DNA from: Ectocarpus siliculosus | Lineage: Eukaryota > Sar > Phaeophyceae > Ectocarpales > Ectocarpaceae | Assembly: GCA_000310025.1 (NCBI GenBank) | Contig: FN648688.1 | Span: forward strand, 17,805 to 63,956 | Length of the DNA: 46,152 nt | Reading direction: 5' to 3' | Shown here: one piece after another, positions 28,763 through 46,152 of the stretch | Layout of the letters: each line of letters starts with the position of its first letter | Position numbering within the stretch: position 1 is the first letter of the stretch | The notes under the pieces: model-generated | What the model saw: only the letters and a program-made list of their open reading frames with translations | Databases searched by the model: none | Told to the model about the DNA's origin: nothing | Made by a program: the position numbers and the translations under genes

Positions 28763-29650
28763 GGGAAGAGTTTGATGGGCACTTGGACACGGGAACGTTT
28801 TCGTTCGTAGACAGTACGCCAGAGGGGCGTAGACCTGTGAGTTCAAAGTGGCGTTTTACTTGGAAGACGAACAAGGAGGGGAAAATCGAGAAGTTCAAAG
28901 CGCGTCTGGTCGCTAGGGGGTTTTCGCAAATTCCGAATGTGGACTCTACTCATCCTCCCCTTGCCCATCATCCGCATCCAATAAACTGATGCTTGCGGTA
29001 GCCAATGAGAAATCATTGAAACTCAACCACTGGGATGTCAAGCAGGCGTTTATACACGCTAAGTTAGACGAGGATGTGTTCTTGAGGCTCCCTGCGGGGT
29101 GTGGGGAAAAATCCCACAAAGTTGTCAAGGCTGAGCGTGCTATTTACGGCTTGAAGCAGAGCGGCAGGCAGTGGGGGTACCACGCTGCCGACACGCTTGT
29201 AGAAAACGGGTTCGAGCAGTGCAAGGCGGACCCGTGCGTCTTCCGCAAGATGAAAGACGATGTCGTGGTGATGATTATCGTGATTTTTGTGAATGAAATT
29301 TTGGTGGCTGGGTCTGATGATGATTGCAAGGAGTTGCTCGCTTCCCTCAACAAGGCATTCCCCACCAAAGACCTTGGAGAGTGTGTGTGGTTCGACGGGT
29401 GTGCCGTTGAGAGAGACCTAGAGGCTGGGACCCTTAGAATCTCCCAAACCGCGTACATTGACAGCATCGTGAATCGCTTTGATGTGCAATCGACCTCCCC
29501 CATCCCTGCTTCCCCTGGTGCCGACCTAGGGCCGAAGCGAGATGACGAGAGTGGAGGGGAGTGGCCAGTGAGGGAGGCCATCGGCAGCATGATGTGGGTG
29601 TCGACGTTCTCGCGCCCGGACATCTCGTTCGCTGTGCGTGCGGTAGCGCC
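28745..29650 (+). pseudogene. Copia reverse transcriptase, active site altered
   Basis: Copia RT signatures: KWRFTWKTNKEGKIEKFKARL, LVARGFSQ, then after a frameshift near 28940 LNHWDVKQAFIHAKLDEDVFL (motif A with Asp), RAIYGLKQSGRQW, and PCVFRKMKDD. At motif C the usual YVDD is FVNE (in VIFVNEILVAGSDD), so both catalytic Asp are replaced (Asn and Glu). This alone should abolish polymerase activity. A further frameshift near 29640 moves the following connection and RNase H to another frame. Confidence 0.9.
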
Positions 29651-30235
29651 CACGCCCATGCCCCTGCCGAGAGGCACTGGAAGGCGATACGGAAGATCCT
29701 CGCCTACCTCAAAGAGACGAGGGACCTCGGGATCACCTACAAATGGAGATCGGGGCTGGGGCTGGCGGTGTACGTGGATGCTAGCTACGCCGACGCTGAG
29801 GATAGGCGTTCTGTGTCAGGGCTGGCAACAACGGTTGCAGGGACCGTCATCAGCCACGGTAGCAAAACGCAAGCTATCGTATCTTTGTCGTCTACGGAGG
29901 CAGAGTACATTGCTGCCGGAGAGGGTGTGAAGGAAGCTTTGTTTGTGCGTGCAGTGCTTTCGTTTATTGCCCCAGAGACCAGTGGCGGTAGCATTCAGGT
30001 CCTTGAGGACAACCAGGGGGCTATGGCCTTGGTGCAGAACCCCCTTAGCTCAGCGCGTAGCAAGCACATCGACGTGCGGTACCACTTCATTCGTGGATTG
30101 TTTAGGTCGGGGGACATCTCGATCAAATTTGTGTTGACGTCGGAGCAACATGCAGACATGCTCACCAAGGCTCTTAGCAAGAGCAACCTGCGGTACCACC
30201 GGAAAAAGCTGATGAATTTGTCGGAGTTTCTGTAG
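29640..30235 (+). pseudogene. Copia connection and RNase H domain
   Basis: After HWKAIRKILAYLKETRDLG come the RNase H motifs AVYVDASYADAEDRRSVSG, LSSTEAEYIAAGEGVKEAL, and VLEDNQGAMALVQNP, with Asp, Glu and Asp at the expected places. Then come ARSKHIDVRYHFIRG and QHADMLTKAL, the standard C-terminus of copia pol. It ends with TAG at 30233-30235. This stretch is uninterrupted, so the 3' part has decayed less than the 5' part. Confidence 0.9.
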
Positions 30236-30331
30236 GATGTTTCAGCGCTTGGGGAAGGTCATGTATACCATGCGGGAAAAGATGCATTACTGTCGCGGGC
30301 TGTGTACCATTGGCAGGAGTAGGAGGCTTCA

Positions 30332-31057
30332 TTGACACCTCTCGCATTTGCCGCGTGCAACAGCAGTTGCAAAGCCATGCATGCGCTATTTCAGCACGGA
30401 GCGCAGGTTGGCGTTCGTGGCAATCAAGGATATACGCCACTGCACGAGACTTGCTGGGAGCGTCACGAAGGGCTAGAGGCGGCCGTGGATATGCTGCTGC
30501 GATGGGGAGCAGATGAAACAACCTTGAACTATGGTGGAGCGAGCCCTGCGGATTTCCTCGGTGGAAGATACGGCAAGGTTATTGGCCATAATCCGGCGCC
30601 GCAGGACGAGATCGATCGGACAAGACTTCTTCTCTCTCGAGCCCCGGCCGACAGAGCGTGGCGTCGCCGGGGCTGGTTGGTCATGCTCCGCTCGCGCGAC
30701 TCGAAGGCTCAGGAGGGAAAGTGTCGTAGCTCTGGCGGCTACGACCACGGTGATGGTGGTGAGGTCGGGGGATCTGAGATGGCGAGGAGCGAGGGCATGG
30801 CGGGTGCTGATTATGGCCGGCCTGGGACGACACGCAACGGTGCTGGTGGTGAAGTCGAGGCTGGAGGCGGAGAGGAGGTCCAAGACATCGCGGCAGGGCT
30901 GCTTGGGCTTAGAAGGAAAAGCGTGGTGCACACGGCTAGCAACGACGGATGTGTGGTTGGCGCCGAGGGCGGAGAGGAGGGCTTACGGTTGGAGGTGCTT
31001 CTGCTGTTAGGACTCGGGCTGGAGGGGGTGTTTCGCGCGGTGGTGGGCTTCCTTTGA
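30332..31057 (+). pseudogene. Ankyrin-repeat protein fragment, brown-algal type
   Basis: About two ankyrin repeats are visible: TPLAFAACNSSCKAMHALF, then YTPLHETCWERHEGLEAAVDMLL with GADETTLNYGG. Ankyrin repeats are helical protein-binding units. They are followed by RTRLLLSRAPADRAWRRRGW, a tail I recognise from memory as common in Ectocarpus ankyrin proteins, and at the end GLEGVFRAVVGFL. The middle part is repetitive Gly/Glu and its neighbours in other frames read almost as well, so it may be frameshifted. It lacks an N-terminus. It starts just after a possible acceptor (TAGGAGG) about 100 bp downstream of the copia end. It could be an exon of a truncated gene interrupted by the retroelement, or a captured fragment. 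Confidence 0.6.
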
Positions 31058-32803
31058 GAAGCACCAAGGAACAACCTTCTTCTTGGGGGCTTGGGTGAGT
31101 TGATTTGTTTGTTGTTTTCCTCGCACTCTCCCGGCTGCCTGCAGCACATACAGTCGGCGGCATGAATTAGTCGACCTGCCCAGATCTGCCGTGTTCTTTG
31201 TTTCGTTATCTCTGAGGTATAGCAGTATTCTGTCTCTCGGTGCGTGACGGTCGATCGGACACCATTCCCACACCTGCCGTCCCTATTTTGGATCCATACC
31301 TTGTGTCGGAGCCCAGGCAGGTGGTTATTATTTTGACAGGTTGGAGTACCACAGGGTGATCTTGGAGCTCTCGTCTACCGTACGAGGTGCCTCTATCATT
31401 ATTTTGCAGCATCACACATAGTACCGTGGGTAATCCGAGAAGCTGACAGCAGCAGCCGCATTGCAATGCTCAACTTCGCAGATGTTGTGGCTCCGTGGTA
31501 CCCCGGTGCAGAAGGCGGAAGACACCATGCTCCCTTAATGTGACAGCACCATCATCTAGGTCCCTTCATGGGGATTGTAAGGTCGAGATCAAGAAACTCG
31601 CGTGGTTGGGTTTGCCGAATCGAACGATCTGGGAAACAACCCTTCTGTAACGCACCATCGCTGGGCGGCCTCTCGAGACCCCGTTGTTGCGGTTGGATAT
31701 CACACACCGTATGTTGCATAAGATATCACACGCCCTGGACCAATTTTCGAAACTCAGTTTCTCGGCAGGAAGAGCAGTGACGGTGCCGCAAATGGCGGCG
31801 TTGGAACCGTCTCGTTGAGAGCTTTCCGAAAAAAAATCCGTAGATTTCGGCATCCTCATCGTCGTGGAGTAATCGAGCATTTAAACGGTCTAATGCAACC
31901 AACGGTACTCGCCCCCTTGCGCGACCCCTGTTATGTCGACGAGTGGAGATCGGTTACACATGTTTGGGGATGTTCATTTCGAGTTTCGAGTGCGTCCCCG
32001 TGTTGTGAGAAACACAAGGAATTTGTTTTCTTGGCGCTGTGCGGGATCTACACTCTTGCGCGACTTTCCCCTTTGATCGGTTGCTGTGCAGACTACTTCC
32101 GACTGGGCCACGTGGTGGTGAGTAGGGACTCCTTTTTTTTACGAAGTAGTCGGTTGTGGCTCCGCTTTTGGAATGTTTTTCTCAATTCATCTCTCCTTTG
32201 TTGTTGCCCGCCTCCACTAAGGCATCACACGTCTCGGCGTTTTGGTTGGACAACTGCTGAAGTACGGTTGATGCTGGCTTTCCGTGAGTAAATGGAAATA
32301 TTTTTTATTTCGTGGCATAGCAGCAACTGTGGCTCTGGTTTGTATGCAAGGCGTTTCTCTCTTCGCCGTGCCGGGTCGTTTCCTGGCACTGGTCCAAAAT
32401 GCCGACGACAAGCAGAGTTCGAACGATGTTGGCTGTTTGCAAGTGATCCACGGCGATAAAAGTAAGCATGTTCGTTTCGGTTAGTCGACTTATCATGCCG
32501 AAGATATGCTAGCTGTCGCTACAACGAGCGACAGCTGATAGATGTAACTGTCGTCAGACGTGTGCGTCCACGGACGGAAACAGAGTGCACACACCACACA
32601 CTTGATACTACACCTGCTGTGCGTTGGTGTGAGAGCTGTGGTAACGTTAACTTCACCTACCGGTTACCCGCTCCCCCGTCCTCATCGCGCTTTCGTGGTC
32701 AAACGTACCCCCCGCATACTGTTGTTGCTGAACCCCCTATTCCCTCTTCTTTGTTCGGTGGTTTTCCAATTGCCACTGGCCAGCGATACAGCAGGACACA
32801 AGT
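31058..32803. other. No gene recognised
   Basis: Open frames such as 31815-32291 (+) and 31566-31880 (-) have no known motif and unstructured composition. Nothing resembling an RNA gene was seen. Confidence 0.4.
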
Positions 32804-33119
32804 CAGTTTTCGTCACCTAGCGCACCAATCGTCATCATGGCACCACTTCGAGCGTGTGCTCCATTGCGATATCTCGGGGCGTGACAGTTGTGTTAGGCAT
32901 GGGTGCTGTGTGTGGGAAAGACCTTCGTGGCGGCGTGGAATCCAAATCGCTTTTTTTGCATCGCCAGGCGAAAAAGCCAAACCGGATTTGACATCGCGAT
33001 GATGCTCTCGCCACATACAGCACCCATGCCCAATACAACTATCACGCCCAGAGACACCACAATGGAGCACACGCTCGAAGTGGTACGATGGCGATCGGCG
33101 TCCTAGGTTTCGATAACTA
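32804..33119. mobile_element. Foldback element (long near-complete inverted repeat)
   Basis: The left half reads TTCGAGCGTGTGCTCCATTG, later GGCATGGGTGCTGT, then AATCCAAATCGC. The right half has the inverted counterparts GGATTTG, ACAGCACCCATGCC, and CAATGGAGCACACGCTCGAA. Pairing extends outwards to ACCTAG (32815) / CTAGGT (33103) and with mismatches to about 32804/33119. Only a few bases near 32968 form the loop. RNA or single-stranded DNA would fold into a hairpin of over 130 bp. This is the form of a MITE or foldback element. No internal gene. No clear target duplication seen. Confidence 0.75.
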
Positions 33120-33357
33120 ATAATGTGGTGCGGTGCTCACATTGCTGGCAGTTGAGCGGGGCGGTAACGGCGCGACAGCAATACATAGTCTCATCATGAG
33201 TCCAGCGGCATCGAGACCAGATGCTGTCGCCCGCTGTGCGTATGTGTCGCTTGTTATGCGTACACCATCTGCTGTGCGTGTGTTGTCTGCTTTGTGGTGT
33301 CGCCCGCAGTGCGTGTGTTCTCTGCTGCCAATCCGCTGTGTGCTCCGAAAAAAAAAA

Positions 33358-33625
33358 AGGAACGTTTGTTCGAAGAGCAGATAGAATAAACTGGTGTTTA
33401 TTTTGTAACAGTCGAATTAGAATTTGGCTTCATTTTCTATCGGAAACCCAGGGTCACGGTGTTTGGATTTATTGTTGTAGTCTATAGGTAGGGATGTCAT
33501 TCCGTGATCGAGTCCACGCAGGGGCTGTAGCAAAGTCGGGTAACGTGTGAGAGCTACAGAGCGCGTGAAGCAACGGAAGGACAGCAGCAGCCGCCTAACG
33601 CAGTAGCGGCGGCAGTTTAGAAAAT
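33358..33625 (+). repeat. Split direct repeat A1 (left end)
   Basis: 268 bp, starting AGGAACGTTTGTTCGAAG and ending GGCAGTTTAGAAAAT. It matches 40296-40564 with a single-base length difference. It contains AATAAAC (33385-33391) facing GTTTATT (33396-33402), a hairpin that also reads as poly(A) signals on both strands. An A-tract (about 33348-33358) lies directly outside. Confidence 0.9.
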
Positions 33626-33687
33626 GGACGGGACGGGACGCGGCGCAAGCATTGGGGAAGCGACCAGCGCGCGCTCGGGACCCTCCA

Positions 33688-33692
33688 TATAA
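33688..33692 (+). promoter_or_regulatory. Candidate TATA box of the split-repeat element
   Basis: TATAA in CCATATAAGG, about 60 bp inside the end of repeat A1, in a GC-rich setting (GGACGGGACGGGACGCGG just upstream). The position suits a promoter for the full-length transcript. No transcription start is provable from sequence. Confidence 0.35.
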
Positions 33693-34373
33693 GGTGTGTA
33701 ATCGGGTCCGTGTCCAACATCCATCGTGTCTGCCGTGTTCCTTCCCGCGTCCCGCTACTCTTGTGACCTCACCGCTGCGTGCATTAGCGCGCGGGGGGGA
33801 GGGTGCAGTAAGATAAGCGGCGTACCGCAGTCTCTCTCGCCACGCCGTTCAGATAGGTACCCTCCCACACATGGGATGTGGTTCATCCCAACCGAGATGT
33901 ACTATCGCTGAAAAAATATTTTAACGGAGAAAACGCGCTGCTGTACGTGCCACGATAGCAGCCATCGTACTGCACGGGGTGGGGAAACCTTGCGGCATCG
34001 GACATAACCGATCGACCCGCGGCAGTGGGGCACGTGGCGTGTGCTGTCAAGAGTATGCACATGGTGCCGGTGCCTTGTTCTCTGTTTCCCGCGGCTCACT
34101 CGGGACTACTTGCCGGTACCTGGTCTGTGCCGCGCACAGACGGGTAAATGTAGCCGAAGGCATCGACGATAATATGCTCACGTAAGCTATCGTCTCCACT
34201 GATGGCATTGGCAAGTCCCACGGTATACAAAGCGGCCGCATGCGTAATTGGAAAGTGCATACAACAGCATTCACGGGAACGGATGAACAGAAGCAGAAAC
34301 CGTGTTGTTGGCGAGTGGAAGTTAACCGATCTCAACGCAAAAAAAAAAAAAAAAACGAAAGTCGTACACTTAT

Positions 34374-35425
34374 CAGCACGGGACGCGCCAACGAGTGGAA
34401 ACACCTGCGCTGTTGGCGAGTAGAGTTAACCGCATTGTGTTGCATGTGTGCTGTAAGCCTCAGCACGAGACGCGCCAACGAGTGGAAGCACCCGCGCTGT
34501 TGGCGAGTAGAGTTCACCAAATTCAACGCATCGGAAGGAAAAAGACCACAAATAATGTATCAGTACGGGACGCGCCAATGAGTGGAAGCACCCGTGCTGC
34601 ATATGTGATGTCAGCCTCAGCACGGGACGCGCCAATGAGTGGAAGCACTCGTGCTGTTGGCGAATAGAGTTAATCGATCTCACCGAAAAAAAAACAACAC
34701 AAAAGCCGTACACGTATCAGCACGGGACGCGCCAATGAGTGGAAGCACCCGTGCTGTTGGCGGGTAGAGTTAACCGCAACGTGTTGCATGTGCGCTGTCA
34801 GCCTCAGCACGAGACGCGCCAATGAGTGGAAACAACCGTGCTACATGTGTGCTGTCAGCCTCAGCACGGGACGCGCCAACGAGTGGAAGCACCCGCCGCG
34901 CTGTTGGCGAGTAGAGTTTACCGAATTCAACGCATCGGAAGGAAAAAGACCACAAATAATGTATCAGTACGGGACGCGCCAATGAGTGGAAGCACCCGTG
35001 CTGCATATGTGATGTCAGCCTCAGCACGGGACGCGCCAATGAGTGGAAGCACTCGTGCTGTTGGCAAGTAGAGTTACATAATCGATCTCACCGGAAAAAA
35101 AAAGCCGTACACTTATCAGCACGGGACGCGCCAATGAGTGGAAGCACCCGCGCTGTTGGCAAGTGGAGTTCACCGTATCCAACGCATCGATCAAAACAAC
35201 AAACACGTATCAGCACGGGACGCGCCAATGAGCGGAAGCACCCGTGTCGCTGCGAACTGGGGTTCCCCGAATCCAAGGTTAAAAAAAAAACAAAAATCCA
35301 CCGTTAGTGCTCTGAAGATAGAAAAAAAGCACGTCCAAAGTATGTCATCTGCGCACTCTCCATATTGTGAAGTCGCCTGGGCGTCAGCACGGGACGCGCC
35401 AATGAGTGAAGCACGCGTGCGGTAG
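34374..35425. repeat. Stem-loop repeat array, about 12 units
   Basis: A word CAGCACGGGACGCGCCAAT followed by GAGTGGAAGCACCCGTGCTG recurs at about 34374, 34463, 34561, 34618, 34718, 34805, 34862, 34965, 35022, 35117, 35212 and 35387. In the consensus CAGCACGGG pairs perfectly with CCCGTGCTG around a 21-base loop. Spacers of 20-65 bp vary, many containing GTTGGCGAGTAGAGTTAACCG. A higher-order block of about 220 bp (34463-34683) is repeated at 34862-35085. It lies in the noncoding left interior of the split-repeat element, so it could be a structural or packaging signal of its RNA, or simply an expanded minisatellite. Confidence 0.85.
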
Positions 35426-35439
35426 GCGTCTGGCATTTC

Positions 35440-37900
35440 CGAATTGGATAAAGAGTAGAGGCGGATACTAACCCTTGCGTGACTGGGTTAGTTTGATTTT
35501 TTTTGTTTTCATTTTCCCCACAACTGGCTCTCTGCCGTCAAAGATCTTCCAAGCATGCGTGTACACCCATAAATCACGGCGGCAAGGATGGTGCAGCAGT
35601 GGGTCCATGTGTGGGGCTCACAGGGATGGGGACGCGGTATATGTAAAAAGGTGACGAACAGGAGTACAGTAGTACTACTGCTGGCACATCTTTTCCACCT
35701 CATCCTTGGACAGAGCATAGGGCAAGCGCATATATATGATATAATAGCGGCGCTAGATGCGAAGACGCGGACGGAAGACCGTCTCACAGAAGCGCCAGAT
35801 CGACGGAAAAAAAAACGGCCCGCTCACCAGAGAATCGAGAGCATCACCCGCTATCGCACAAAATGCATAAAAATCGGGGTAAATTTTACTACTCTGTACT
35901 ACAAATAGAGAGCTGTGATCGGAGCTGTGATCGGAGCTGTAGTCCCGAAAACCGTTGTCTTTGAGCGAAATTTTGCACACAGCAGACGAACCACCCTTCA
36001 CTCCCAATACTGGGAACCACACGCACCGCAACCACAACAACATCAAGCACCGAGGCCGTACGTTAGCATCGGCTCCGGTGCGCGCTTTCTCTGCTCTCCC
36101 CCGCGGATGCGGCACCGGGTTGAGCAGATGTTTGGGGCTGTATGTACCCTCCGATGGTATTGTGCGTTTGAATCTTAAGAGTACAGCAGTATCGGTAGGC
36201 AGTAGACTGGATCTGGCAAGGATATCTGCCTCACGTCAGAGAGATGAGGCATGGGTGAATAGTGCTGTGCTATGTGAGTCCTGTGCTCCTTGCTGATAAG
36301 CGCGCCTTTGGGGTGGGCTGCCTGTGTCTCCCTGCTGGTCTCTATCTATGTAGTTTTTTGCTCTTAGCCGAGGCACAACGTCGATCTTTCGGCACGCAAA
36401 GTGATCGACGCTGAGGACGGAGCTGAATCGGCCTGTACTCACGTAAGGGTTAAAGGCCACTTAAGCTACCCCTGGTGCCAAGAGCTCGCTCTGTGGCAAT
36501 ATAACGAGTTACGATGATATTTAAATATCGAACGATAGCTAACATTACCATCTATCCCGTAACTAAAACTAAAACTAAAAATCGTTATAAGTGACAAGGT
36601 ACAGCGGTAGCCGTTTGCCTAAGTTGAAGATGGAATATTGAGGGAAAACACGGCCCGGAGGGTATTAACGGCTACCTTGAATACTAGTGATTGCGCTCGT
36701 TCTACTGCTTCCCAGAACGTCTCCTTTGGCACAAACAATGATGATGGTACTAACGAGCGTTTAGAATTAAAAATATAATAAAAATGCTTACCCGGGGACA
36801 AAAACGAAGAATCCCCTGGCTTTCGTTTGGCTGTTTATAGAAAAAATAAGAAGGAGGAAGCAACAGCATTAACAATGCCACGCGACGGGAGGTAGCTTTA
36901 CCCACCATCTGTCTCGTACAAGGTTAGATGCCATGGGGTATCGTGTGTGTGGAGAAAAAAAGTTGCAACTGCCCTCTCCCGCACGGAACATCCCGGAAAA
37001 GCCGCGCAGCCCTGTTCTGATCGTCAGTCCGTTCACCGCTTGTCACGATCGGCATTTCTCCTCGAGCACCCAACGAGCCGGCCCGTTTATAGCTTGCCGG
37101 CGAGCAGAGCCTTCTGGCTACAAATAATGGCCATTGTCTCGGTGGTAGGGTGCCGATAGCCCCTCTATGAGCAGTGTGCAGCAGGTCGTGTCGTGCACTT
37201 GCTTTGCAGCGGCCTCGCGCCAAACTCCTTGAACTCCTTGCCTCTTTGATTTTGATTTTGATAGAAAAAGTCCCCTGGGACTTCTTCCCAGACAGAGGAA
37301 CTTCTAAAAATCAAAGGGCGTCGTCAGGAGGTAGCAGATATTCGACCAATCAGATCTCGATTTTGATTCGATTTTTTTTTCGATTTTGATTTCGGCACTT
37401 CGTTAACATTCGCCCTTAGCGGCTGGAAAATAAATAAATCGAGAAAGGCTGGGATATCGTACGCCACCTTGGCGCCGAACGCTGTAGAGGGCTCAGTTTT
37501 TATCCAGCTGGAGCAAACTTGCGCTTAAACGATCGGCATGGTCCATGACAACAAGGAAAAAAAAAAGGCATTCCCCGATATTGTTGGCAAGATATGAATT
37601 TTTAAGCCAGGTGGGCGTTAACACTCGGGTGGCCTTTTAATACCCGCCTCTACTCAACACCTCCAAAACACGTGCCGAGGAATATTCGGGATTGTCGAGA
37701 TACGGGACCCCCATTGACCGTAGCGTAAGCAGCAACAATCACTCCACTCAATCTACAGGCGTCGAGAACGAACCAACGCAAGCTCGTGATATAACAACGC
37801 GTCGTTCTGGGCCCGACGCAGAGCCTCGTCAGATATTTCCGCCGAAGATAGGAACTTGTAGAGCACTCTAACTGCAGATCCAGGCGCGCGATCGACCACG
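35440..37900. other. Noncoding interior of the split-repeat element
   Basis: No reverse transcriptase, RNase H or other domain is recognisable. Small features: a 13-bp tandem repeat (GAGCTGTGATCG, three times) at about 35910-35942; ACTAAA repeats at about 36560-36580; TTTGATTTTGATTTTGA runs at 37243-37265 and 37355-37395; an AGTCCCCTGGGACT palindrome at about 37268. Where an autonomous element would carry RT there is only this. Confidence 0.55.
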
Positions 37901-37922
37901 CTCACGATGAACAGGAAAACAA

Positions 37923-38772
37923 GTGTTCCCGCAACGCCGCCCTGACGTTCGCCCGCCGCCTGCCGCCGGTTCGCTGCTTACACGACTCCAACTGCGACCA
38001 GATGCCGACACGGGCCTCCACGCGGAGCGGCAGGGCTGCGGCCGGGCAAGCAGGGCGAGGTCGGGCGGCGACACTCTCGACACCACGCACGAGGTCTACC
38101 GCGCGATCGGTGGCGAGCTCGACGACTCGCCCCTCGACGCGGAGCGGGTCACGTACTTCCGCGAGGCGTCGAGCGGTATCCTCGTCGCGAGGGACAGGGA
38201 CAGGCACCCGCGGCGACCCCCCCGCTGACGAGACTGAGCTCGCTCCTCTCCGCGGGCTGGTGGACGGCCTGAGGGAGGAGCTGCAGCGGGAGCGCGACGA
38301 GGCTGGCGGCGATATCCAGTAGCTTCAAGCATCGATCGACGACCTGATCGCCACCCAAGCAGCAGGACCTGGCCTTTAGGGGGAGGTGCAACTGGTGGGC
38401 ACAACCGCCCCACCACCGGCATCTCGGGCCCCCGCTGTACCCAGCGCCGAGGCTGCTAAGGCTGCGGCAAAGGATAGGGCGCGGATGCAGGGGGACCTCC
38501 GCCGGCTAAAAGCGCAGCTCATCCTCGGACGGCCTCCGGCAGTTGCAAAACTGTCGGAGCCGAAGTGGCAATCCTTGCCTCGCAAAGGCGTTCTGGTGAC
38601 AGAGAAAGTGGCGGCATCGCTCGACACGCTCTCAAACTTCCGGGTCGAAGACCGTGGTCGCAACGTTGGCCACGGCAACGGGGGAGGGTGCGGAGGAGAG
38701 GCGCGCGCCGCTGGCGAGGGCGGCGCGAGGCCCACAGCCGCTGATTTCTTCACCCACGAGAAAGACAAATAG
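37923..38772 (+). pseudogene. Gag-like / ORF1 region of the split-repeat element
   Basis: The sequence reads well in one frame to about 38200 (EVYRAIGGELDDSPLDAERV), then shifts by one base to a helical, charged segment (LRGLVDGLREELQRERDEAGG). Two in-frame TAG codons follow (about 38320 and 38377), with the same frame continuing through AEAAKAAAKDRARMQGDLRRLKA to a TAG at 38770. It is Arg/Ala/Glu-rich and predicted coiled coil, consistent with a gag-like or DNA-binding ORF1, but no zinc knuckle is present. Its last 119 bp overlap the recombinase frame in another phase. Confidence 0.5.
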
Positions 38773-40168
38773 AAGTGCGGGCTCTCCCGCGTGGCGGGGG
38801 GGGCCTACCTCGGTTGGCAGTGCACATGCGGCCAAATCGAACGGCAGCACGCCGGTCTACACGAGGTTGGCCCAGGGCAATCAGCAGGTTCAGGACCTGG
38901 GACAGGCAGGACAGGACTCTGTTGCCGACGTCTTGGCATCCAGCTCGTCGAGCACTCAGTTGTCTAGAAGGACTTGCACGTCAGGCTTCAACTCTTGGTG
39001 CACGTTTCGGAGGCTGACGGAGAAGCCCAAGTTTCTAGGGCAACGTGCCAGGGACCTTCATGTGTGGGAGTTGATAGACTTCGTAGCCTGGTGTTTCGAG
39101 TCTGAGGGTAACCTAGCGAGTACAATATCCGGAAAACTCACGGCTGTGCAACATTTTCATACTTGTAGGCTGGAAGCTTCGATCGAGCTAGACTTGTCGT
39201 CTCCGATGTTGAAATGTGCGCTAAGGGGGATGGCGAGGAACCACGTGGCTATGGGGACGGTACGCCGTGTGCGCCTGCCTGTGTTATGGCGTATGCCGCT
39301 GGACGGGGAAAGCGCAAGGCAGAACTGGGGGGAAGGGGGCAGAGTGATGTGGCTGTGTCTGTGCCTGTCCTATCTCTTCATCACACGGTCTGATGAGGTG
39401 TTCGCGAATGACGCGGGCAGGGTGCATGAGGCACACCGTCTTACGAGGGCGGACAAATCATTGTTTGCCGACGGGACGCAACTAGACTTTAGTCACTGTC
39501 GTAGAGCAGACCGTGTTGAAATGAGGTTTAGAGGGCACAAGGCCGATCAAGAGCAGAAAGGCAACATACGGGTTCGTACGCGAGACGAAGTCACCGGACC
39601 GCAGTCAGGTGTGAGAGCACGCGGCGGCGCGGTGGCTCTTGTGGTGGAGCTATTGTCGTGTCATGCGACGTTGCCTGACTCCGCTCCGTTGGCTCCGTAC
39701 CGTAGTGGAAGAGCAGTGAGAGTAGTGAAGTATAGTGCTGCCCTCCGTGCAGTAAGAGAAGTGGTAGCGAAGTCGGGGCGTAACCCCCAGGAGTACGCGT
39801 TGCACTCGTTGCGAATTGGAGACGCGACGGCTCTTGCATCGGGCGGAGACATCGCAGAACGAGTGATTCAGAGAGAAGGGAAGTGGAGGTCGAATGCCTA
39901 CAAGCCGTATGCGCGAAACAATGTAGAGGATTCGCGGCGAGTGTCACGGAACTTACAGACGGCAGCAGGATCGTATCGAGACAGCCGGGGGAGGGGACCG
40001 TATGGGGAACGCATAGTTGAGTTATTCGATAGTCGTCCAGAAACTGACCTCGATGTGGGTGTTGTAGAATGGTGTGTACCATTTGAGGACTTGGTCAGTT
40101 TTGGGACTGCTGCGGTTGCAGTCGTAGTCCCCCGGCTAGTATTTATGGGGAGAGAGATGGATTTGTAA
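38654..40168 (+). CDS. Tyrosine recombinase of the split-repeat element
   Basis: 504 codons without interruption. Residues 1-100 are low-complexity and partly a shadow of the preceding frame, so the true start is probably internal or follows a frameshift near 38770. Residues about 105-200 look like a core-binding domain (FNSWCTFRRLTEKPKFLG, ELIDFVAWCFESEGNLAS). The catalytic domain has Arg245 (FITRSDEV), Lys296 (GHKADQE), His384-x-x-Arg387 (ALHSLRIGDATALASGG), Trp411 and Tyr416 or Tyr419 (WRSNAYKPYAR). The enzyme would join a circular intermediate to target DNA. The last 37 codons lie inside repeat B1, so B2 carries a second copy of the gene's 3' end. It differs from the recombinase at 6.9-8.2 kb in sequence and in lacking a TIR context. 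All landmark residues are present, so it may still be active. Confidence 0.9.
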   Translation: MVATLATATGEGAEERRAPLARAARGPQPLISSPTRKTNRSAGSPAWRGGPTSVGSAHAAKSNGSTPVYTRLAQGNQQVQDLGQAGQDSVADVLASSSSSTQLSRRTCTSGFNSWCTFRRLTEKPKFLGQRARDLHVWELIDFVAWCFESEGNLASTISGKLTAVQHFHTCRLEASIELDLSSPMLKCALRGMARNHVAMGTVRRVRLPVLWRMPLDGESARQNWGEGGRVMWLCLCLSYLFITRSDEVFANDAGRVHEAHRLTRADKSLFADGTQLDFSHCRRADRVEMRFRGHKADQEQKGNIRVRTRDEVTGPQSGVRARGGAVALVVELLSCHATLPDSAPLAPYRSGRAVRVVKYSAALRAVREVVAKSGRNPQEYALHSLRIGDATALASGGDIAERVIQREGKWRSNAYKPYARNNVEDSRRVSRNLQTAAGSYRDSRGRGPYGERIVELFDSRPETDLDVGVVEWCVPFEDLVSFGTAAVAVVVPRLVFMGREMDL

Positions 40169-40295
40169 CAGTTGACGCCGGCCTTCGCAGCTAACGCGGC
40201 CGGAGAGACGATGAGCGTTTCGTGCGTCTCTCTCCCCAACACGTAGCCTAGAAACCGAAGAAATAATGAAGCAATTCGAAAGAAAACAAAATAAA
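40057..40295 (+). repeat. Split direct repeat B1
   Basis: 239 bp from GGGTGTTGTAGAATGGTG to CAAAATAAA. It includes the last 37 codons and the 3' untranslated region of the recombinase gene and directly abuts A2. Copied at 40631-40869 with about three substitutions. Confidence 0.9.
40147..40236 (+). terminator. Hairpins after the recombinase stop codon
   Basis: CCGGCC (40178-40183) pairs with GGCCGG (40198-40203). GAGAGACG (40203-40210) pairs with CGTCTCTC (40225-40232), and GGGGAGAGAG at 40147 is also complementary to CTCTCTCCCC at 40227-40236. These overlapping stems sit just before AATAAT/AATAAA-like words. They could affect 3'-end formation or be recombination-related. Function is a guess; the pairing is exact. 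Confidence 0.4.
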
Positions 40296-40564
40296 AGGAA
40301 CGTTTGTTCGAAGAGCAGATAGAATAAACTGGTGTTTATTTTGTAACAGTCGAATTAGAAATTTGGCTTCATTTTCTATCGGAAACCCAGGGTCACGGTG
40401 TTTGGATTTATTGTTGTAGTCTATAGGTAGGGATGTCATTCCGTGATCGAGTCCACGCAGGGGCTGTAGCAAAGTCGGGTAACGTGTGAGAGCTACAGAG
40501 CGCGTGAAGCAACGGAAGGACAGCAGCAGCCGCCTAACGCAGTAGCGGCGGCAGTTTAGAAAAT
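40296..40564 (+). repeat. Split direct repeat A2
   Basis: 269 bp, the second copy of A1, directly downstream of B1 without spacer. It carries the same AATAAAC/GTTTATT hairpin (40323-40340). A 66-bp unique spacer (40565-40630) separates it from B2. Confidence 0.9.
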
Positions 40565-40630
40565 CCCGCCCTCCCATCCCTTTTCTTTCGAAGGTGGGGG
40601 CATAAGTTCGGGAGTATTCGGTATCTAGTC

Positions 40631-40869
40631 GGGTGTTGTAGAATGGTGTGTACCATTTGAGGACTTGGTCAGTTTTGGGACTCCTGCGGTTGCAGTCGTA
40701 GTCCCCCGGCTAGTATTTATGGGGAGAGAGATGGATTTGTAAGAGTTGACGCCGGCCTTCGCAGCTAACGCGGCCGGAGAGACGATGGGCGTTTCGTGCG
40801 TCTCTCTCCCCAACACGTAGCCTAGAAACCGAAGAAATAATGAAGCAATTCGAAAGAAAACAAAATAAA
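40631..40869 (+). repeat. Split direct repeat B2 (right end)
   Basis: Second copy of B1, including the recombinase C-terminal codons without a start, so only a non-coding duplicate of the gene end. The element ends after CAAAATAAA; flanking sequence GCGTATCATC begins at 40870. Confidence 0.9.
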
Positions 40870-40970
40870 GCGTATCATCTGCTGACCCCTGTAGTCTAAA
40901 ATCAAGTCATTTTCATGTACTCTAAAACCTAGATTAATCGAACAGATGCGACACACTTTTTTCAGGATTA

Positions 40971-41197
40971 TTGTTGTTGTTGTTGTTGTTGTCTTCACAT
41001 AAAACCGTTCCGGTCTCCACTCAGTACCTTCTAACGTCCGTACTATACTATACTATACTATACTACAACAGTACAACTGACGCGGACGCCTTTCGTGGTC
41101 ACAAGTAGGTTGCCGCAATCTTGTTTTTCAAAGCCCGAGTGATCCACACGATCAAGCGAAAAACCCAAGAACTGAATCGAGCCCTGCTGCAGCGTAC

Positions 41198-41236
<39 letters not shown>

Positions 41237-41353
41237 CTTCACATTAAAACAACCGTTCCGGTCTCCGCTCAGTACCTTCTAATGTCCGTACTATACTATA
41301 CTATACTATAGTATAACAGTACAACTGACGCGGAAGCCTTCCGTGGTCACAAG
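40971..41353. repeat. Two GTT-tailed repeats with ACTAT microsatellites
   Basis: Copies at 40971-41105 and 41199-41353 share a (GTT)n run, GTCTTCACATTAAAAC, CCGTTCCGGTCTCC, CTCAGTACCTTCTAA, GTCCGTACT, a (TATAC)n microsatellite, AACAGTACAACTGACGCGG and CGTGGTCACAAG. A third, shorter relative lies at 19439-19528. The two copies here are tandem with about 90 bp between them. They are probably the tail of a non-autonomous retroelement; no coding sequence. Confidence 0.75.
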
Positions 41354-44197
41354 CCAACTGCCCCCCATAGGAGGGGGGGGTACACCTTTCTAAAAAATAA
41401 AGGAAAAAAAATGGACACCAGAAATTCCTCCAAGGAGCGATTTGTTATCCAACCGAAAACGAGATCAACAGTAAGGCAAACAATAATCGGGATAAAGAGA
41501 CGATCGGCGACCCCGGTCAAAGGGATGAAATGACGAAAGGCAAAGAAAGAAAGAACAGAAAGAGAAAAAAGAAAGAAAACAGAGAGAAAGAAAGACAACG
41601 AAAGAAATAACGGCAGATAGAGACAGGTCCCCTCCAACGCTCCAGTCTACCGTGGAGCGCTATATTGCGGCGAGACCTCAGGCCGGATTAGAAATCTCGC
41701 TTCGCTCGAATAAAAGGACCGCTCGAATAAAAGGACTGCTGTCGCCCTGCAACAACACTCTTGGTTTTGTATGGGTCGAGCTTCCTGGTTTCGTTTGAGG
41801 CGGCGTTTGACATCCGCTTTGAAGTATGGGCTTTCATCTAGTAAGACCCGTCCTGGGATATGGTGCATTTTGCATGGGTTTCGTGGTCATCAGACCACAA
41901 ACGAAACGGAATGCGCAAAGCAACGTGAAGGTAGGAGGACTCCACTTGTACTACGTGCCACCAGTCCTGTGGCTTTCTTGTTTCGTGTGTACCTCTGCTG
42001 CAACCGCGTTGTACCTGCTTTTACCTTGTGTTCTTTTGTTGCTCTGTCAACCACCCCCATTTCTGGTCGACTTGGATCTGTCAGATGCACCAGCTCCACG
42101 GATCAGTACTCCTCAGATCACGTGGTGTGGACTCCGGAGTGAACGGGTGCATACCAGGGCGTATATGACTCTTCCTCCGCCCACAACCGGTCTGATTCTG
42201 TGCTGAGATGACCATGTTTCTCCTACTTGATCACCGTTGGGGGTTGGTGGGTGCTTCGTCTTGTCATCTTTGAAGTGTTCAACATTCCCGGCAGGCGTTG
42301 TGTTGGTTTAGAACCCACGTGGGATGCGTTGGTTTGTGCATCAGAGCAGGTTTGAAGCGGCGGACGTAGGTGTTCGTATCCTGTCTCTTGGAGTTTCTAG
42401 ATCGGGACGAAATCGCCAAGGGCCCTTGCTGTGACCATTCCGCTTTTCCGAGCAGTGGAAAAAGAAACACAAGAAGAATAATGCACCCCGGACTCGAATC
42501 GGCGACACGTGACATGTGAAAGTACCGAGTGTATGTTTTGTAGGTGTGAGGCGTGTATGTGACGGACAGGTGCCCTCCCATGATAAGAAAATAGTTTATT
42601 TTGGAGAGTAGTTGAGGTGAGGTATGGTGGAGATTCAGCTAGCGCCCGCACTTAAGAACCGCTGATGTTGCGCGAGGCTCGATGCTTTCTGGCTGCCTCA
42701 AACCGAGCACCTGTCTTCATTTCCATAGTTCTTATGTCGAGCATGCCTCCGCCTATCCGCCTATGAAAAAACGGTGTTCTTGTTCCTCGTATCTTTACGC
42801 CGAGGTCCCATGCAGGACACAGGTTCTCCTGGGTAATGAAACACTTGTTTGCGTGTTCATACAAAAAGCAGAAAATACGCCGTTCAGCAGGACCTCTGGA
42901 TCCAACGCACCGCAGCTTCCGCGATCACCACAGGGTGGAAACACAGACACGACATCGCCTAAGAGGTGTCAAACTACATATAGAAACAATAACCCACGTA
43001 GTAGGGGTCCACGAGGGTCACCTTCGGCAATATTGTCCTCCCCGCTTCTACTTACGTCCGTCATAGCTACACTGTTGAGGCCTGGAGCCTCCCCCCTTTC
43101 TGCAATCGTAGGACCTCCTCCCTTCTCTGCGGTGCTCCCCCAAGCAAATCCCACGACCCTAGACGGCGCGCCCCGCGTGGGCCAGCAGCTTGCCATGATG
43201 ACAACGAAGGGCGAGCGCTGATGATGATGCTGTACCTATAATAGTATTTTCCCGTCTGGCCCAATCTTCTGGCGAGAAGAGACCCAAGTTTGTTTTCAGC
43301 CCCGACGTCCTGGAGCCTCCCAGTGTGCGCCTTCGTGAAGCAGTTACCGCCGGCAGTATTTCTCTTTCATCCTCGAGATGTCGACCAAAAAAAGTCTTCT
43401 CTAAAGTCTCAAGGCATACAGACAGACATGGCTTCCGTGCATGCACACACCATACACACAGCGTGGTAAGCGCAAACACGATATCACGCGACGAGGGGTA
43501 TGCCGTGTGACGAGCACGCACCTACCCCCACCAGTAGCTCAGGATGTGCCCCGCCAGGAACAATAGTGTGGCTAGCCGGGATACCCAATGAACCCATGGC
43601 ATGTATCGATTTGGCACAGCAAACGCGAGGATGATGACCTGGTTCTGGTACATTCATGTTAAGCGTATCCCCCACTCTCATACTCTCATCAGAGCCTGAC
43701 AACAAGTTCCGGACCCGGACGCAAAGACAAGGAAACCGCTCAGGATGGACACATCACAACACTTCACGCCCTCACAAAATTTCAGGGGGGGGTCCCTGGG
43801 TTGTGGAATGAAGCTCTCGATATATATGTAATCCCCCAGCATCAAACGAAATTCGTACATATATCCATTCCCTCCCCGGAGCTCTTGTACATATGTATTG
43901 TCATCAAGCAACTTGATTGAGCTGTACAGATAGCGCCCGCATTAAGAAAAAAAAGGCTCAAGTTTTTTCGAAAAATAAGAAAAAAAGGGTTATGAAACAT
44001 AGCTCAATCTCTTCCACAACGTAAGAAGCGCCCCAATATGAAACATGATGGTGCGATACCCCCATGACATCAGAAACAGAAATCTTCGGTGTGCTCCTAC
44101 CCCCCTACCTAGCTGAACAGAAGTAGTGCATTATTTTTTGTAGGGGGCAGAGTGGTTATTTTCGCGCCCCCCCCCCCAAACAAGGGTCCCCCCCCCC
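41354..44197. other. No gene recognised; purine tract and short frames
   Basis: A GA-rich tract runs from about 41520 to 41615. Two overlapping frames on the + strand (41771-42142 and 41826-42206) and one at 42682-43221 have no known motif. AGCGCCCGCAYTTAAGAA words appear at 42640 and 43933 and may mark ends of a small repeat. From 44115 the sequence becomes C-rich and leads into the tandem array. Confidence 0.4.
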
Positions 44198-46084
44198 GGT
44201 GTTTGCCATCGGGCTTTGGGTTTTCGTCGCTTGGCAACGACGTTGTAAAACAAGCCCCCCACTCGGTGTTTGCCATCGGGATTGGGTTTTCGTCGCTTGG
44301 CACCGACGTTGTAAAACAAGCCATTTCACTTCGTGAACTCGACAACCAGGTTACCGTTTTTTTTTTACCTCGGTTTTTGTTTTTGGCGGTAACCATAATG
44401 GTGGTCGAGTAGATCATGTTGTGCGGGGTCGAGAACCCTCACTCCGCGCAACGGGGGATGATCTCACCACGTTGTGTTAAACTGGTCAAGCACCCTCGAG
44501 GCAGTTACACAGTGCTTACAACTGTCTCTGGAAGTGAAAGCACCAGAAAATAAATTAAGTCATACGTAGCTGTCATCCGTACGCAAGGAAGTAAGCACAA
44601 GATGCCGAACACCCTTAGCAGGATGCAGCTCACCCTTCATGCGACTCGCCAAATACCTCACGGCGCTTCGCGCTTGGTGATGTGAGAGCCTGGTCCGGTG
44701 AGAACCCGGCGTGCTCCGTCCCGGCTTTGTAGGGATGCGAGGTCAATGGTCAAACGACTACGGCATGCACGACTATGAGTACACCCCCCCCCCCCCGGTG
44801 TTTGTCATCGGGGTTGGGTTTTCGTCGCTTGGCAACGACGTTGTAAAACAAGCCCCCCCCTCGGTGTTTCCCCCCCGGTGTTTGCCATCGGGGTTGGGTT
44901 TTCGTCGCTTGGCAACGACGTTGTAAAACAAGCCGCCCCCCCCGGTGTTTGCCATCGGGGTTTGGGTTTTCGTCGCTTGGCAACGACGTTGTAAAACAAG
45001 CCCCCCACTCGGTGTTTGCCATCGGGATTGGGTTTTCGTCGCTTGGCAACGACGTCGTAAAACAAGCCAATTCGCTTCGTGAACTCGGCAACCAGGTTAC
45101 CGTTTTTTTTTTTTTACCTCGTTTTTTTTTTTGGCGGTAACCATAATGGTGGTCGAGTAGATCATGTTGTGCGGGGTCGAGAAACCTCACTCCGCGCAAC
45201 GGGGGATGATCGCACCACGTCGTGTTAAAATGGTCAAGCTTCCTCGAGGCAGTTACACAGTGCTTACAACTGTCTCTGGAAGTGAAAGCACCAGAAAATA
45301 AATTAAATCATACGTAGCTGTCATCCCGTACGCAAGGAAGTAAGCACAAGATGCCGAACACCCTTAGCAGGATGCAGCTCACCCTTCATGCGACTCGCCA
45401 AATACCTCACGGCGCTTCGCGCTTGGTGATGTGAGAGCCTGGTCCGGTGAGAACCCGGCGTGCTCCGTCCCGGCTTTGTAGGGATGCGAGGTCAATGGTC
45501 AAACGACTACGGCATGCACGACTATGAGTACACCCCCCCCCTCGGTGTTTGCCATCGGGATTGGGTTTTCGTCGCTTGGCAACGACGTTGTAAAACAAGC
45601 CAATTCACTTCGTGAACTCGGCAACCAGGTTACCGGTTTTTTTTTTTTTACCTCGGTTTTTGTTTTTGGCGGTAACCATAATGGTGGTCGAGTAGATCAT
45701 GTTGTGCGGGGTCGAGAAACCTCACTCCGCGCAACGGGGGATGATCGTACCACGTTGTGTTAAAATGGTCAAGCACCCTCGAGGCAGTTACACAGTGCTT
45801 ACAACTGTCTCTGGAAGTGAAAGCACCAGAAAATAAATTAAGTCATACGTAGCTGTCATCCGTACGCAAGGAAGTAAGCACAAGATGCCGAACACCCTTA
45901 GCAGGATGCAGCTCACCCTTCATGCGACTCGCCAAATACCTCACGGCGCTTCGCGCTTGGTGATGTGAGAGCCTGGTCCGGTGAGAACCCGGCGTGCTCC
46001 GTCCCGGCTTTGTAGGGATGCGAGTTCAATGGTCAAACGACTACGGCATGCACGACTATGAGTACACCCCCCCCCCCCCCCCCC
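44198..46084. repeat. Composite tandem array of short and long modules
   Basis: A short module M (about 58 bp, starting GGTGTTTGCCATCGGG and ending GTTGTAAAACAAGCC) and a long module L (about 460 bp) alternate: M at 44198 and 44265, L to about 44785; M at 44797, 44877, 44944 and 45011 plus a partial at 44863, L to about 45530; M at 45544, L to about 46066. M contains CGTCG-CTTGGCAA-CGACG. L contains GGTTACCG...CGGTAACC around T-runs, and ends CGGCATGCACGACTATGAGTAC plus a C-tract. The three L copies are almost identical. M numbers vary 2, 4, 1. Open frames here come from the repeat. Confidence 0.85.
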
Positions 46085-46152
46085 TGCTGTTCCCTGTGCT
46101 GTACTGGAATACTGCCCCACATCGCGGAAAAACCCATGGTCTCCGCTGTTGT
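46085..46152. other. Window end, unique sequence
   Basis: Short unique sequence after the last C-tract of the array. No feature seen. Confidence 0.4.

Follow-up and report, generated by a model that had tools for sequence, protein, structure and literature searches.

A split-repeat element of Ectocarpus siliculosus that encodes a putative tyrosine recombinase and no reverse transcriptase is most probably a non-autonomous derivative of a Ngaro-type retrotransposon

Introduction

How does a mobile element spread when it has the split direct repeats of a retrotransposon and a tyrosine recombinase (YR), and no visible reverse transcriptase (RT)? This question is raised by positions 33358 to 40869 of a 46,152-nucleotide stretch of the Ectocarpus siliculosus genome (contig FN648688.1 of assembly GCA_000310025.1; the whole stretch is hereafter the window), where an element with repeats arranged as A1 ... 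B1-A2-B2 was found. A sequence-only reading of the window had taken this arrangement as a hallmark of PAT/Ngaro retrotransposons and had offered two explanations, namely that the RT is provided in trans or that a known structure is used by a type of element that works independently of RT. We compared the element with its relatives in the genome (189 Mb in 492 contigs, the window being positions 17805-63956 of contig C469), and the first explanation is the best reading: the window element is most probably a deletion derivative, non-autonomous and mobilised in trans, of a Ngaro-type YR retrotransposon ordered A1-gag-RT/RNase H-YR-B1-A2-B2.

Results and Discussion

An RT-bearing relative in the same genome

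Searches with YR proteins found many copies of the family in the genome (85 of 1046 candidates were scored), and candidate RT-bearing copies were located through P0013, a protein of Ectocarpus that fuses an RNase H-like part to a YR. Matches to one of its segments abut YRs of the family on contigs C74, C79, C156, C187, C27 and C147, and the one on C74 was read as copy L042. From stop to stop, L042 has frames of 564 codons (gag), 768 codons (RT-RNase H) and 392 codons (YR) in this order, followed by B1-A2-B2; its own A1 lies 8 kb upstream (C74:183943-184213), and the whole element measures about 8.45 kb. The gag frame contains what we take to be a cysteine/histidine knuckle, and the pol frame presumably a YVDD box.

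The Pfam family RVT_1 matched L042 weakly (E 0.02, below the cut-off) and 9 of 19 RT homologues, the best at 2.7e-4 and likewise below the curated cut-off. The model predicted for homologue P0020 (predicted local distance difference test, pLDDT, 81.6; predicted template modelling score, pTM, 0.82) gave 71 hits to solved structures at E<=0.001, and all 50 of those listed are RTs, including the enzymes of cauliflower mosaic virus (CaMV), foamy virus, Ty3 and human immunodeficiency virus (HIV), with long alignments and low TM-scores (0.2-0.45). L042 is read as encoding an RT-RNase H, its RT family scores lying under the curated cut-off and the predicted fold of a homologue matching solved RTs. 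One of the 19 homologues also matched Peptidase_A17 (E 8.2e-4). Ectocarpus sp. CCAP 1310/34 has unnamed products with 64% (YR) and 57% (RT) identity. Sequence searches of the PDB for RT and YR returned nothing useful, and matches to OspA (E 0.31 and 0.79), ribosomal bL9 (E 0.0006) and a ubiquitin hydrolase (E 2.1) were judged spurious.

Loss of RT-RNase H and of part of gag

When the RT-RNase H frame of L042 was searched against the whole window (tblastn), it was recovered as residues 9-35 at 38798-38878 and residues 723-768 (of 768) at 38885-39014, every other row having E>=0.7; as a control, the same query covers L042 nearly end to end. Both remaining ends flank a deletion junction. At E<0.01, four RT homologues contributed no match beyond the same C-terminal end (P0020 at E 0.006, the others more weakly), nor did a profile of 19 homologues, which recovered the frame holding it (E 0.0006). 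Elsewhere in the window neither tblastn nor this profile detected an RT (best other rows E>=0.3). Since the searches recover the two ends of the frame alone, the RT-RNase H core is absent rather than degenerate. The profile search that the sequence-only reading had proposed for 33.6-37.9 kb was thereby run, and a degenerate RT in that interval was ruled out; in the parent the RT sits between gag and YR, which corresponds to 38884-38889. No hits were obtained in a Pfam scan of four open reading frames (ORFs) of the window or with Rfam at the gathering threshold. The coding part of the window element and its two junctions are as follows.

37813..38770, + strand: gag remnant, zinc-knuckle part missing, interrupted internally by three stops, of which one precedes the first Met common with L042
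38651..38652, + strand: gag deletion junction, fusing L042rc 1973 with 2662 (about 0.69 kb), common to the 16 subfamily-1 sequences compared
38654..40168, + strand: 504-amino-acid ORF containing the putative YR, its C-terminal end frameshifted relative to L042 and running into B1
38884..38889, + strand: RT-RNase H deletion junction, fusing L042rc 2899 with 4948 (about 2.05 kb, 6-bp microhomology)

The window copy therefore equals L042 minus these two segments, and it has neither the RT-RNase H of its own nor the intact gag that autonomy would call for; the gag-like region described earlier is indeed gag, in the form of a broken and truncated remnant. Twenty-five sequences were compared (the window copy, L009-L031 and L042). 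The RT deletion was present in 23 of the 23 RT-less sequences that are readable there (window copy, L009-L028, L030 and L031), with GCAGGT as the microhomology in the window copy and alignments resuming at L042rc 4948; in L020 the left break lies earlier, at 2864, and L015, L022 and L023 align across the junction with base changes that hide them from a short exact pattern. In L029 the junction is visible at the edge of a run of N. An apparent open frame of 1341 amino acids in the copy on C241 was rejected as an artefact of a 2,883-base run of N, which has the deletion junction at its right edge.

Across the genome the RT-deletion junction occurs at 107 places (21-mer, at most one mismatch) and the undeleted boundary at 10 (23-mer, at most two mismatches), counts that miss more diverged copies of either kind; reversed-pattern controls gave 0 for both. 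Undeleted boundaries on C27, C273, C14 and C156 also have close A repeats beside them. Because one junction is found at 107 places against 10 undeleted ones, the RT was probably lost in a single event before amplification, and hence before the insertion in the window, as the sequence-only reading had supposed. That reading had named full-length relatives with RT, of which this copy is a deletion, as evidence against itself; such a relative exists at the family level in L042, with a deletion that is shared by the 107 places and not private to the window copy.

The gag deletion of the window copy (1973 to 2662) is found in 16 sequences (the window copy and L009-L023, L019 being off by 1-2 bases), and a different one (1952 to 2463) in six (L024-L028 and L031), while L030 has no gag deletion of that size and keeps a 514-codon gag frame. 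Two subfamilies differ in the deletion that removes the zinc-knuckle half of gag, which appears to have been lost separately in each; the simplest order would be RT loss first and then gag loss twice.

Termini, insertion sites and recent movement

The split direct repeats with near-identical pairs hold, with exact borders:

33358..33625, + strand: A1, left terminal repeat, starting AGGAACG; border set by comparison of copies, empty paralogous sites agreeing within a few bases
40057..40295, + strand: B1 (repeat search and copy comparison)
40296..40564, + strand: A2 (repeat search and copy comparison)
40565..40630, + strand: 66-bp spacer between A2 and B2 (copy comparison)
40631..40869, + strand: B2, right terminal repeat, ending in AAAACAAAATAAA; empty paralogous sites agree within a few bases

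The A repeats match at 99.3% over 277 bp (33350-33625 and 40288-40564) and the B repeats at 98.7% over 239 bp (40057-40295 and 40631-40869); the second A match opens with 8 bases that are part of B1, and A proper begins with AGGAACG. Among copies having A2-B2 the spacer is 94-100% alike, and the RT-bearing L042 has A, B and spacer 92-98% alike. The element ends are nearly constant between copies (A1 start AGGAA, B2 end AAAACAAAATAAA) and the flanks vary, the exceptions being L014, whose register is off by one base, and L021 and L023, each with one altered B2 base. The termini of the window copy are direct repeats, and inverted terminal repeats of the DIRS1 kind were not found; the sole inverted repeat of at least 25 bp in 30000-46152 lies outside the element.

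All four repeats are visible within the stretch fetched in 12 of the 25 sequences. The other forms are A1-body-B followed by flank, without A2-B2 (L016, L018 and L025); B followed by flank, with no A1 in the fetched stretch (L017 and L019); a B-A junction that continues into a second element body (L026); B1-A2-B2 with A1 outside the fetched stretch or missing (L021-L023, L030, L031 and L042); and a stretch cut inside B (L015). Additionally, two A repeats lie 569 bp apart at C12:1582100-1582940, which suggests tandem A-spacer-B units, and no B1 match is listed beside 3 of 40 A-spacer-B places (C30:3632657, C109:151136 and C14:3550693), which are candidate solo AB units.

Insertion can be followed at empty sites. 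When the two flanks of the window copy (118 and 97 bases) were joined and searched in the genome, 38 of the 40 matches listed are continuous across the join (40 of 85 candidates were scored), and the remaining two are the window's own flanks. Three of the 38 were aligned and proved to be empty: they have an A-rich site, CCGAAAAA...CATCTG, without the element, and a target duplication is not evident. Sequence variation of a few bases at the join means that insertion may have added or removed 1-2 bases. The host site itself (33240-33357 and 40870-40966) belongs to an older genomic repeat present at no fewer than 38 further places.

The recent movement proposed earlier is borne out by L009, which shares 99.8% identity with the window copy across 7.5 kb and has different flanks and a different site. 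These observations also bear on the possibility that the RT-less copies are relics, in which RT was lost independently after insertion or which spread by segmental duplication. In favour of this, most YR retrotransposons of fungal genomes are incomplete in the account given by PMC3783388. The identical junction at 107 places, the differing flanks at the same ends, the empty sites and the near-identity of two copies with different flanks speak against it, and we regard this explanation as extremely unlikely.

Moreover, repeats resemble each other more within a copy than between copies: the mean A1/A2 difference is 0.77 within and 7.88 between copies (13 copies, L026 included), and the mean B1/B2 difference 1.39 within and 4.23 between copies (18 copies). 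Such likeness would follow if each round of reverse transcription rebuilt the repeats from one another. For B the signal is clear in shuffles within subfamilies, where 0 of 5000 reach it.

The YR and a DNA-only alternative

The YR recognised by the sequence-only reading is retained here as the 504-amino-acid ORF, an identity read from PF00589 in relatives and from alignment. Relative P0093 reaches 31 bits for PF00589 (cut-off 27.1) and P0104 27.0, 0.1 bit short; the family is precomputed in 2 of 120 listed relatives. The window YR has no Pfam hit, and among 18 close YR homologues one matches PF00589 at E 0.19, three unrelated families reaching similar E-values among the YR homologues; NCBIfam gave no hits for the 18, and the L042 YR matched Dicer_dimer at E 0.25. 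A structure prediction for the YR was too poor to use (pLDDT 44). An arginine, an HxxR motif, a tryptophan and a tyrosine (R, HxxR, W, Y) are the positions typical of YRs, and in the alignment they are intact in the window copy.

One C-terminal frameshift is common to 13 of the 16 copies of subfamily 1, to which the window copy belongs, and L019, L022 and L023 have a different small deletion close to it. Where 27% of changes are expected to be synonymous without constraint, L042 and subfamily 2 are separated by 13 synonymous and 3 nonsynonymous fixed YR changes (p 1e-5; the changes may lie on either branch) and subfamily 1 and the rest by 11 and 13 (p 0.06), while the singletons are 31 and 53. 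Compared with the singletons, the ratio of subfamily 1 is no different (p 0.48) and that of L042/subfamily 2 is different (p 0.002). Because of the shared frameshift and the singleton-like ratio, supply in trans is probable, though not certain, for the subfamily-1 YR as well.

The intact YR positions would suit a Crypton-like lineage that moves as DNA only, its own YR excising and integrating DNA circles at B-A junctions, and so would some constraint that may remain on the subfamily-1 YR and forms that resemble site-specific products (the copies without A2-B2, the B-A junction of L026 and the A pair on C12). However, the same termini are found in an RT-bearing relative, the YR is frameshifted or has a nearby small deletion throughout the subfamily-1 copies, its fixed changes (11:13) stand against 13:3 for L042/subfamily 2, and homologous recombination between repeats accounts equally well for the odd forms. 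We consider a DNA-only mover very unlikely, and it is highly improbable that a retroelement turned into a YR-driven DNA element that kept its split repeats as YR sites and spread through circles. The earlier suggestion of a known structure in the service of an RT-independent type of element is therefore abandoned, given the RT-bearing parent represented by L042.

Proposed mobilisation in trans

Under mobilisation in trans, the RT-less element would be transcribed together with its split repeats, and RT-bearing relatives would supply gag and RT-RNase H (and probably YR, in subfamily 1 at least). These proteins would act on its RNA because the cis signals (A, B and spacer) are retained. The B1-A2 junction would be the template that joins the ends of the complementary DNA (cDNA) into a circle, and recombination by the YR between the circle's B-A junction and an A-rich site would insert the element without duplicating the target. 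Copies without RT and half of gag have multiplied, and therefore those proteins probably come from the RT-bearing relatives.

Several points weigh against this interpretation. Mobilisation in trans is an inference, and no RNA, cDNA or circle was observed; one RT-bearing copy (L042) was read. A repeats are closer to the repeat of another copy in 2 of 13 cases (L014 and the window copy) and B repeats in 4 of 18 (L021, L023, L030 and the window copy). Within-subfamily shuffles leave a modest signal for A, 141 of 5000 reaching it. Besides, the subfamily-1 YR is not clearly neutral, with 11 of 24 fixed changes synonymous (p 0.06).

If correct, the family offers a natural experiment on what a YR retroelement with split repeats needs in cis. 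RT-less copies, in two subfamilies also without half of gag, have spread, so the signals would reside in the A and B repeats, in the spacer and perhaps in the 5' noncoding part, and the proteins could be shared. The parasitic derivative is in roughly tenfold excess over its likely helper.

Noncoding stretch and surroundings of the element

The noncoding stretch of about 4.3 kb described earlier does exist ahead of the gag remnant, and about 1 kb of it proved to be a nested repeat. No part of the stretch coincides with the RT position in L042.

34340..35293, + strand: subterminal tandem-repeat array in the 5' noncoding part (repeat search), also present in the RT-bearing L042
35472..36449, strand not assigned: nested repeat of about 1 kb, with window borders CTAA/CCCTTGCGTGA ... 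TCACGTAAGGG/TTAA

We take the nested repeat to be a piggyBac-like miniature inverted-repeat transposable element (MITE). About 984 bp of it occur at 20 or more further places where the match ends with the repeat (40 of 380 candidates were scored), and at the place on C16 the TTAA stands outside CCCTTACGTGA and its inverse, in surroundings unlike the element. In subfamily 1 the nested repeat is carried along. The following noncoding segment (36450-37660) is specific to subfamily 1 and was not matched in L042 or subfamily 2, save for a 185-bp patch beside L030.

Left of the element lie the inverted repeat mentioned above (32836-33090; 80-nt arms, 88% complementary, 95 nt between them) and an ORF without Pfam hit (29561-30235), which presumably resembles the RNase H end of a Ty1/copia polyprotein. 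An imperfect direct repeat with TTG microsatellites is directly to the right (40968-41353), and a large block at 44178-46079 contains three copies of a direct-repeat unit, spaced about 748 and 534 bp apart.

Comparison with known systems

Cryptons are YR DNA transposons not known to have an RT, split direct repeats or an RT-bearing parent; the window element shares with them a YR without RT and differs in having both split repeats and such a parent, and is thus not a Crypton. TOC1 of Chlamydomonas, of the PAT type, is like the window element non-autonomous, with split repeats and no known RT, and unlike it is not known to have a YR.

The assignment to the PAT/Ngaro kind holds as to YR retrotransposon, and the parent appears closer to Ngaro than to PAT. 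A PAT-type parent would agree with the split direct repeats that both groups have and with the zinc finger of the Pat1 gag, both as described in PMC4157794. Against it are the order of L042 (gag, RT-RNase H, YR, internal repeats downstream of YR) and the lack of any methyltransferase family, a PAT feature, among the Pfam hits of its three frames, in the one RT-bearing copy read; such a parent appears unlikely. The Ngaro features outlined in PMC4157794 and PMC8547959 are split direct repeats, gag, RT-RNase H, YR and no methyltransferase. Split repeats A1 ... B1-A2-B2, with the internal ones downstream of YR, are present in the window copy and L042; RT-RNase H and YR are encoded by L042 and homologues, and the window copy is without RT-RNase H.

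The Ngaro elements of Cafeteria burkhardae, as presented in PMC8547959, are similar in their order A1-[ORFs]-B1A2B2, YR, RT-RNase H (here in the relative), isolated AB repeats and deletion variants, type 2b being without ORF1. For Ectocarpus, PMC12477816 gives 15 Ngaro families with 3,893 copies, 689 of them intact, amounting to 2.45% of the genome. Unlike these Cafeteria and Ectocarpus elements, the window family deletes RT-RNase H and later gag, keeps YR, and has its RT-less form at 107 places against 10. SIRE, the short non-autonomous form of VIPER (PMC6681497), is likewise a YR-retroelement derivative that keeps A and B repeats; by that account it consists of the A2-B2 region of VIPER only, whereas the window element retains 7.5 kb with YR. 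ALOG-DIRS1 of Ectocarpus, as portrayed in PMC3537659, is another brown-algal YR retroelement with RT-RNase H upstream of YR, and differs in its length of just over 9 kb, its 159-bp terminal direct repeats, an ALOG-domain YR and an inactive adenine methylase. No published description of the window family was found in the passages of the literature covered, supplements excluded, so that it may already be in the Ectocarpus transposable element library. Overall, the window element is of a known kind, and what distinguishes it is that RT-RNase H was deleted and YR kept, in a form that outnumbers the RT-bearing one by about 10:1.

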